Below are positions 13,580 through 61,226 of a DNA stretch of 64,000 bases, one piece after another; the stretch's first letter is position 1; every line of letters begins with the position of its first letter. Origin of the DNA: Thiomicrospira sp. (lineage in GTDB: Bacteria; Pseudomonadota; Gammaproteobacteria; Thiomicrospirales; Thiomicrospiraceae); contig NZ_JACUTY010000004.1 of the NCBI RefSeq assembly GCF_014859555.1, positions 1 through 64,000 on the forward strand, in the 5' to 3' direction. A program made the translations under genes and the position numbers. The notes below the pieces were generated by a model. The model was given only the letters and a program-made list of their open reading frames with translations, was not told the DNA's origin and made no database searches.

Positions 13580-13918
13580 ATGAAAACATTGGTTGAGTTA
13601 GAAGAGTTGGAACAGTTGATTAACCAACAACCAGGCCTGGTGGTGTTGTTTGGTGGCGAGCATTGCAGCGTTTGTCAGGTGATTAAACCCAAGCTTGAAA
13701 CGATGTTAGCAGAGCGTTATCCTTTGTTGCAAGTGGTGTATATTGATTGTCAGCAGAGTCAAACCTTGTGTGCGCAAAAGTCGGTATTTAGCTTGCCGGT
13801 GGTGCAGGTGTATTTTGATCGTCAGCGTTTTATTGAAAAGGCGCGCAGCTTTAGCTTAGCGGCTTTACTGGATGAAATTCAACGCCCATATGAGTTATTG
13901 TTCAATATTTCAGAATAA
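13580..13918 (+). CDS. thioredoxin-like protein
   Basis: GEHCSVCQVIKPKLE CxxC motif; cis-Pro region FSLPVVQVY. Confidence 0.75.
   Translation: MKTLVELEELEQLINQQPGLVVLFGGEHCSVCQVIKPKLETMLAERYPLLQVVYIDCQQSQTLCAQKSVFSLPVVQVYFDRQRFIEKARSFSLAALLDEIQRPYELLFNISE
13631..13640. repeat. dispersed palindrome, in thioredoxin-like gene (PGLV)
   Basis: CAACAACCAGGCCTGGTGGTG. Confidence 0.9.
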
Positions 13919-13946
13919 CCTAAAGCACCAGGCTTGGTGCTTTAGG
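13919..13946. terminator. 28 bp near-perfect hairpin between convergent genes; degenerate copy of the dispersed palindrome
   Basis: CCTAAAGCACCAGG/CTTGGTGCTTTAGG, one G-T wobble at core. Confidence 0.7.
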
Positions 13947-13961
13947 TTTGCAGTTTAAAAA

Positions 13962-23810: not shown

Positions 23811-23836
23811 AACAAGCACCAGGCCTGGTGCTTGTT
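23811..23836. repeat. dispersed palindrome extended to 26 bp, intergenic glyA-nrdR
   Basis: AACAAGCACCAGGCCTGGTGCTTGTT, perfect. Confidence 0.92.
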
Positions 23837-30794: not shown

Positions 30795-31094
30795 TTGGCC
30801 CAACACTGCAAATACATTATTGAAGGTATGACCGAAGATGGTCGTAAATTCCGTCCGAGTGACTGGATTGACCGCATTTCATCGATGATGGCATCCTATG
30901 GCAAATCCCATCGTTTAGTTTACTCGGAACTCTTACACCCAGAGCTCTATAATGGTGCTAAATGCTTAATTATTGATACTGAGCTTGAGATAAAAAATCC
31001 CAGTATGTTTGAGTATGTGATGCACTTTGCAAAAAGTAATAATCTCAAAACGTCTAAGGTGTGTGACTTGGAAGAGGCAAAGCTCGGTGCTTAA
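30795..31094 (+). CDS. DUF3579 family small protein
   Basis: YIIEGMTEDGRKFRPSDWIDRISSMM; TTG start plausible. Confidence 0.7.
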   Translation: MAQHCKYIIEGMTEDGRKFRPSDWIDRISSMMASYGKSHRLVYSELLHPELYNGAKCLIIDTELEIKNPSMFEYVMHFAKSNNLKTSKVCDLEEAKLGA

Positions 31095-31133
31095 CGGCTA
31101 GAGCAGCCTTTATCTAGAAGGTTAAATGCTTTT

Positions 31134-31163
31134 CCCGAAACCACCAGGCCTGGTGGTTTCGGG
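31134..31163. terminator. 30 bp perfect palindrome between convergent genes (extended copy of dispersed motif)
   Basis: CCCGAAACCACCAGGCCTGGTGGTTTCGGG. Confidence 0.8.
31144..31153. repeat. dispersed palindrome core inside 30 bp hairpin
   Basis: core of 31134-31163. Confidence 0.92.
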
Positions 31164-31200
31164 TTATTGTGTTACGATTAGACAACCCCGCATAGTGGCT

Positions 31201-31983
31201 CTAAAGCAACCATTCAACTAAAGCTTGCTCACCCACAAATAACTGAACCGCGCCACCAACGGCGAGAAATGGGCCGAAGGCCATTTGGCTTTGCCAAGCT
31301 TGTTTACGCGAGATAATTAAGAAAATAGCAATCACAAGGCTGCTGATAGCCGCAATCACAATAATTTGCGGTAACGCACTAACGCCAAACCAAGCGCCCA
31401 GCGCGGCGGCTAATTTAAAATCGCCGTAACCCATACCGTGTTTGCCCGTCAAACGAAAGTGTATTTGATAGATTAGCCAAAGAACCCCATAACCCAATAC
31501 CGCCCCTAAAATCGCTTGTTGTGGATCGGTAAACTGACCAAATGCATTAAGTAATAGCCCGAGCCAAAGCAGCGGAAGACTGAGGTTGTCGAGAATTAAG
31601 TGGTGCTCTAAATCAATCACGCTGATGGTTAACAGCCATAACAAAAACAGTGCACCAATTAGCCCATTCCAATTAAAGCCAAATTGCCAAACCGCCAGAA
31701 GAGCTAAGGCGGTCGCGCTGATTTCGATAAGCGGGTAACGCCAAGAAATGGATTGATTACAAGTTTGGCAGCGGCCTAAACTAAACAGCCAGCTCAACAA
31801 GGGAATGAGTTGATACCAGGCAAGCGGTGTTTCGCACTTGGGGCATTGTGAACCACCCAGGCTGATAGCTTTAAGTTGTTCGTCTGCGGGGTTAAGCATC
31901 ACACGCGGTAAACGCCAGCTTAGCATCGAGATAAAACTACCAAATACTAGGCCTAAAAGGGCGGTAATAAATAAGTCAATCAT
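31201..31983 (-). CDS. pilD: prepilin peptidase
   Basis: CPKCETPLAWYQLIP, CQTC, GYGDFKLAAALGAW. Confidence 0.93.
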   Translation of the reverse strand: MIDLFITALLGLVFGSFISMLSWRLPRVMLNPADEQLKAISLGGSQCPKCETPLAWYQLIPLLSWLFSLGRCQTCNQSISWRYPLIEISATALALLAVWQFGFNWNGLIGALFLLWLLTISVIDLEHHLILDNLSLPLLWLGLLLNAFGQFTDPQQAILGAVLGYGVLWLIYQIHFRLTGKHGMGYGDFKLAAALGAWFGVSALPQIIVIAAISSLVIAIFLIISRKQAWQSQMAFGPFLAVGGAVQLFVGEQALVEWLL

Positions 31984-60497: not shown

Positions 60498-61226
60498 ATG
60501 ATTTATCAGCAACCGGCGTTTGTTTTACATAGTCGACCTTATCGTGAAACCAGCGTGATGTTAACCCTGTTTACACCCGAGTTTGGTAAATTAAATGCGA
60601 CGGTGCGTGGGGTTCGGTCTGGTGGTAAAGCCGCAGTACAAAAGCAGGCCTGGTTGCAACCATTCCAGGCTTTGCAAATTCAGTGGCGGGGCGCTGAAAA
60701 CCAGGTAAGTGAATGGATTCACCCGCAGGGCTTTGAACCGCATGGTGTAGCCATCGGCTTAAAGGGCGAAGCCAGTTTATGTGGTTTGTATCTAAATGAG
60801 TTGTTGTATCGTTTACTGCAAACCTGCGCGCCGATGGAAGCGTTATTTTTACACTATCAACAAACCTTACAGCTTCTGCATCAAGCCGATACCCGAGACC
60901 ACCAGGCCTGGTGCTTACGTCAGTTTGAGTTGGCGTTATTATCTGAGCTGGGTTATGAGCTGGATTTGGTACAAGACCATCAAAGCCAGCCAATATTAGA
61001 TTCTATTTTCTATACTTACCGACCTGAGTTAGGTTTCATCGCCTTACACCCCAATTATGCAAACTCGTCTGAGTGGAGTATGGCTGGTGAGTGTTTGATT
61101 AAGCTGGCACAAAAAGAATTTTGTAAAGATTGTTTACCAGCCTGGAAGCAATTAATGCGTCGCGTGTTGCATCCGCATTTAGGCCCTAAACCCTTGGCTA
61201 CACGCCAATTGTTTAAATCGTTTTAA
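60498..61226 (+). CDS. recO: DNA repair protein RecO
   Basis: PAFVLHSRPYRETSVMLTLFTPEFGK. Confidence 0.93.
   Translation: MIYQQPAFVLHSRPYRETSVMLTLFTPEFGKLNATVRGVRSGGKAAVQKQAWLQPFQALQIQWRGAENQVSEWIHPQGFEPHGVAIGLKGEASLCGLYLNELLYRLLQTCAPMEALFLHYQQTLQLLHQADTRDHQAWCLRQFELALLSELGYELDLVQDHQSQPILDSIFYTYRPELGFIALHPNYANSSEWSMAGECLIKLAQKEFCKDCLPAWKQLMRRVLHPHLGPKPLATRQLFKSF
60902..60911. repeat. dispersed palindrome, in recO (HQAW)
   Basis: GAGACCACCAGGCCTGGTGCTT. Confidence 0.9.

Follow-up and report, generated by a model that had tools for sequence, protein, structure and literature searches.

Repeated genomic words of two usually separate kinds are known, i.e., uptake sequences with a second role as terminators, and the highly iterated palindromes (HIPs) of cyanobacteria, whose function is unknown. 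In paired uptake-sequence terminators of Neisseria and the Pasteurellaceae, a non-palindromic word pairs with an inverted copy of itself, and uptake sequences form 17-55% of the terminators in these bacteria (Kingsford et al., 2007, PMC1852404). According to Elhai (2015, PMC4390886), HIP1 and the alternate HIPs of cyanobacteria are motifs tied to methyltransferases. The locus described here, from a Thiomicrospira genome, bridges both kinds by means of a palindromic 10-mer, CCAGGCCTGG. This word is under strong maintenance, with no cognate methyltransferase recognised in a search of three families; close relatives use different dialects of it, and its copies at gene ends are elaborated. As the family is cultivable and non-pathogenic, the reason for such genome-wide motifs could be tested.

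In common with the terminators built from uptake sequences (DUS/USS), a short and highly repeated genomic word forms the hairpin stem at gene ends, with other copies residing within genes. Nevertheless, the DUS/USS word is non-palindromic and two inverted copies of it are needed, whereas a single palindrome CCAGGCCTGG suffices here for each hairpin; moreover, uptake specificity is known for DUS/USS and would be putative for CCAGGCCTGG. The analogy to paired uptake sequences drawn by a first-pass annotation of this DNA thus stands as a loose likeness, since one self-complementary motif, not two inverted words, forms both arms. With HIPs, the motif shares the GC-rich palindromic build, the abundance of hundreds of copies per Mb or somewhat fewer, the mainly coding location as well as the patchy loss and the swap for a different palindrome in some relatives (Elhai, 2015, PMC4390886). 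HIPs generally accompany a cognate methyltransferase, in contrast to this genome, which is devoid of matches to PF00145, PF01555 and PF02086, and the enrichment at convergent gene ends found here is not among the HIP features consulted (Elhai, 2015, PMC4390886).

The first-pass annotation of the window, meaning the whole 64-kb stretch of DNA that was analysed, had described a perfect 30-bp palindrome built around the motif in the gap between the DUF3579 gene and pilD. The palindrome is real, the core motif forms its centre and both neighbours were identified correctly, as Pfam matches revealed (Table 1). Its two arms of 15 nt feature 100% complementarity without any spacer, and it is separated from the DUF3579 stop codon by 39 nt and from the pilD end by 37 nt. 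No perfect palindrome of the window is longer, and 20 random sequences generated with the dinucleotide composition of the window (Markov-1) gave a longest arm of 9 nt vs 15 nt at this site. Among the five perfect palindromes of the window with an arm of at least 8 nt, four carry CCAGGCCTGG in their centre. An Rfam search at the palindrome site yielded no known RNA family, and a phage or viral origin was rejected, the 16-mer CCACCAGGCCTGGTGG being found in just one viral contig. Taken alone, the single copy at 31134-31163 is a fairly ordinary gene-end hairpin.

Table 1. Features of the palindrome and its flanking genes (positions in the window).
Feature	Position	Strand	Remark
DUF3579 gene (PF12112), E 9.4e-30	30795..31094	+	hairpin downstream
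30-bp perfect palindrome CCCGAAACCACCAGGCCTGGTGGTTTCGGG	31134..31163	.	RNA: 13-bp stem with GGCC loop, -23.3 kcal/mol when folded alone
Core motif copy CCAGGCCTGG	31144..31153	.	789 copies in the genome
Extended motif ACCAGGCCTGGT	31143..31154	.	flanking A/T in 94% of sampled own-genome copies
Left arm extension CCCGAAACCA	31134..31143	.	beyond motif consensus, specific to this copy; outer part not kept in sister genome G001
Right arm extension TGGTTTCGGG	31154..31163	.	pairs with left extension
Moderate U-tail TTATTGTGTT	31164..31173	+	for transcripts from the DUF3579 gene
pilD-side tail AAAAGCATTT	31124..31133	-	stem-adjacent U-tract absent
Prepilin peptidase gene pilD (Peptidase_A24; PF06750, PF01478), E 4.5e-25	31201..31983	-	convergent with DUF3579 gene

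The core motif is by no means restricted to this gap. Exact CCAGGCCTGG occurs 21 times in the window, e.g., at 2199, 9706, 17115, 23819, 31144, and 60902, and 25 sites vs 1.0 expected are found if up to one mismatch is allowed. The 2.1-Mb genome holds the copies listed in Table 1 at a density of ~370 per Mb, whereas the reversed word, used as a control, is absent (0 copies). In a 774-kb sample drawn from the own genome and that of its sister G001 (~0.77 Mb, corresponding to ~18% of the former and 19% of the latter), 302 exact copies stand against 0.38 expected, while other palindromes of the same composition reach 0 to 2 copies each. Apart from the genome-wide counts, the statistics on the motif are based on the window together with such sampled stretches. 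Most of the sampled copies (222/301; about 72-75% across genomes) lie in coding sequence, so that the strong genome-wide over-representation, mostly within genes, by which HIPs are recognised applies to CCAGGCCTGG as well. Forms with one mismatch are rare beside the exact copies, except for GCAGGCCTGG, in which the first position is changed from C to G and which is itself over-represented in the 774 kb (53 vs 0.8 expected; e.g., 60644-60653, L076-L084). In alignments between the own genome and the sister (79 kb, 81.5% identity), the motif is intact at 27 of 32 sites (84%), compared to 12-17% for control 10-mers. The copies in coding sequence write PGL (102), QAW (97) or RPG (23) into the encoded proteins, which points to a pressure acting on the DNA and not on the protein.

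Several possibilities were considered and rejected. The genome was searched for the methyltransferase families PF00145, PF01555, and PF02086 with no match to any of them, and a cognate cytosine or adenine methyltransferase was thus discarded as the driver. Very short patch repair of the Dcm type, acting on the two CCWGG halves, was rejected on account of the missing match to C5 methyltransferases (PF00145) and of the alternate palindrome ACCGGCCGGT of a relative, which does not contain CCWGG. Even spacing of the copies was rejected as well, their distribution being near random (CV 0.91 vs 0.99, not significant). In the open literature, to which the search was confined with subscription papers outside its coverage, no published description of CCAGGCCTGG was found, and in a text search for the 10-mer the papers listed were all unrelated.

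Investigation of 63 genomes of the order revealed more than 100 copies of CCAGGCCTGG in 27 of them and almost none in most others. The motif-rich genomes comprise all nine of Thiomicrospira (g1), 7/12 of Hydrogenovibrio (g6), 10/32 of Thiomicrorhabdus (g3) and the only member of group g4 (1/1). Within single genera, the counts were seen to split between hundreds and near zero. The flanks of the motif vary by lineage, and in one genome of the Thiomicrorhabdus group (G029) CCAGGCCTGG is absent (0 copies) while the alternate palindrome ACCGGCCGGT occurs 1025 times, compared to 0 to 15 copies of the latter in other genomes. The copies of ACCGGCCGGT in this relative are accompanied by AT-tract flanks (L031-L034), and a search of its genome for PF00145 and PF01555 gave no match. 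In a further relative (G031), another repeated word, TCATCCTGA / TCAGGATGA, is over-represented beside the motif dialect (L039-L042). A loss of competence genes was rejected as the cause of motif absence, as ComEC (34/36 relatives) and DprA (63/63) are present irrespective of the motif count; for the same reason, gene content does not discriminate an uptake role. As a tentative interpretation, to which we assign somewhat less than even odds, CCAGGCCTGG and its counterparts (ACCGGCCGGT in the one Thiomicrorhabdus relative and the lineage-specific flanks) may constitute a dialect-forming, genome-wide palindromic recognition system of the Thiomicrospiraceae, in which a dimeric protein, either DNA-binding or active in DNA uptake, would be the reader instead of a methyltransferase and gene-end copies would secondarily serve as terminators.

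The distribution of the motif relative to genes was determined with a simple ORF scorer instead of a curated annotation, which renders the location classes approximate. On this basis, each 10 kb of coding sequence in the sampled stretches holds 3.2 copies of CCAGGCCTGG in the own genome and 3.1 in the sister. The corresponding densities are 2.6 and 3.1 for divergent gaps (two and three sites, respectively), 12.8 and 11.1 for tandem gaps, and 28.5 and 23.9 for convergent gaps. Convergent gaps are hence 8-9x richer in the motif than either genes or divergent gaps. The copies in convergent gaps are distinguished by their arms, too. Their mean extension beyond the core is 4.5 vs 2.2 if the right flanks are shuffled among sites, a value of 4.5 being reached in 0/2000 shuffles, while the corresponding means in coding sequence are 1.57 and 1.46. 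Extensions of at least 6 occur at 17/73 tandem or convergent sites vs 7/227 coding or divergent sites (Fisher p 6e-7), and those of at least 10 at 4/25 convergent-gap copies, the one described here included, vs 0/276 elsewhere, with about 1e-4 per copy expected from a mismatched-flank null. The data thus support that copies at gene ends have been elaborated into hairpins, and the recruitment of the motif at gene ends suggested by the first-pass annotation is borne out statistically by the density and the long arms in convergent gaps, in contrast to the bidirectionality that it had assigned to this copy. Still, gene-end hairpins are a minority use of the motif, and the coding majority of its copies argues against termination as its main role.

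The same gap was compared among relatives. In the sister genome G001, the motif lies 52 nt after the stop codon vs 49 nt here and is embedded in a 22-bp palindrome, whose outer arms have diverged while the core and its position are kept; the resulting hairpin has a weaker stem (-13.4 kcal/mol) and is not followed by a U-tract. Conservation of the arms without the core, which had been named beforehand as an observation against recruitment, is thus not seen between the two closest genomes, with G004 as a partial exception, where a one-mismatch core is combined with paired arms. An exact motif copy is absent from this gap in 6/9 Thiomicrospira genomes, and a Hydrogenovibrio relative (G020) features a 20-bp version of the palindrome. 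Many motif-poor relatives hold an ordinary hairpin terminator with a T-tract in the syntenic gap, which identifies the gap as a natural terminator position. The same arrangement was also found at some loci with the motif in the flanks.

With regard to termination at this copy, the 106 nt surrounding the palindrome fold better than shuffled sequences on both strands. The tail on the + side contains five T within its first 8 nt (TTATTGTG), though no run of T, and matches a permissive terminator scan, whereas the tail on the pilD side features a single T within its first 8 nt and does not form a U-rich tract; the scan made no call for this hairpin on the - strand. Across all convergent motif sites, T-tails (mean maximum of 8) score 4.2 and are thereby barely above random convergent-gap positions (3.75), and among tandem sites T is no more abundant in sense tails than in antisense tails. 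On these results, a + strand terminator for DUF3579 transcripts is plausible, and the bidirectional terminator proposed by the first-pass annotation finds no support at this copy.

The reading that we favour, with a probability of roughly 0.6, is that of a motif copy which is kept by a pressure other than termination, has been arm-lengthened at a gene end and most likely acts as an intrinsic terminator for DUF3579. The word (A)CCAGGCCTGG(T), spread over the whole Thiomicrospira genome, would be upheld by a genome-wide pressure unrelated to termination. Since the motif is self-complementary, each transcribed copy would represent a ready-made hairpin seed, and at the 3' ends of genes, above all in convergent gaps, copies may have been preferentially retained and their arms grown into stable stems. 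Here, where the stem has grown to 13 bp and a moderate U-tract adjoins it towards pilD, transcripts coming from DUF3579 would most likely be terminated intrinsically. For the opposing pilD transcripts, the hairpin would be a weak terminator at most, or a structure protecting the 3' end after Rho-dependent termination. Observed are the motif and its maintenance, the enrichment at gene ends, the long arms and the unequal tails, from which termination, the direction in which it acts and protection of RNA 3' ends are inferred.

A true bidirectional intrinsic terminator serving DUF3579 and pilD equally is unlikely in our view. The convergent setting, the position near mid-gap and the perfectly symmetric stem agree with it, and two other motif copies (L074 at 7704, L087 at 11908), flanked by A-tracts and T-tracts on both sides, resemble textbook bidirectional terminators; however, the pilD-side tail with its single T and the scan match confined to the + strand argue against equal function at this copy. 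With bidirectional intrinsic (Rho-independent) terminators between convergent genes, the palindrome has in common a stable GC-containing stem midway between two converging 3' ends and one moderately U-rich side, but the U-tail is confined to that one side and the stem is built on a motif repeated throughout the genome.

Termination by Rho and subsequent exonuclease trimming back to a stem is a generally known mechanism. The palindrome might correspondingly represent a block at the 3' end and no terminator, with transcripts of one or both strands being stopped by Rho downstream and trimmed back to the stem, a possibility that we regard as about equally improbable as the bidirectional one. It would account for elaborated arms without elaborated tails and is consistent with the strong stem with weak tails and with the absence of a U-tract at most motif-bearing convergent copies, but fits less well with the moderate U-tail on the + side of this copy. 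Least probable is a mere genome-wide motif copy without any role in RNA, its long arms being due to chance or to an extended site of a dimeric protein, for although most copies are located in genes and the core is preserved in the sister genome while the outer arms differ there, arms of this length are confined to convergent gaps and hardly expected by chance, and the lack of enrichment in divergent gaps speaks against a binding site situated between genes as the explanation.

Two further sites of the window may be mentioned beside this hairpin. A second long perfect motif palindrome (arm 13) is located at 23811-23836, which is 27 nt past a gene on the + strand and 3 nt before the next gene. 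At 13917-13951, a one-mismatch copy of the motif, CCAGGCTTGG, lies within a long paired stem (AAACCTAAAGCA...TGCTTTAGGTTT), by its look another gene-end hairpin.
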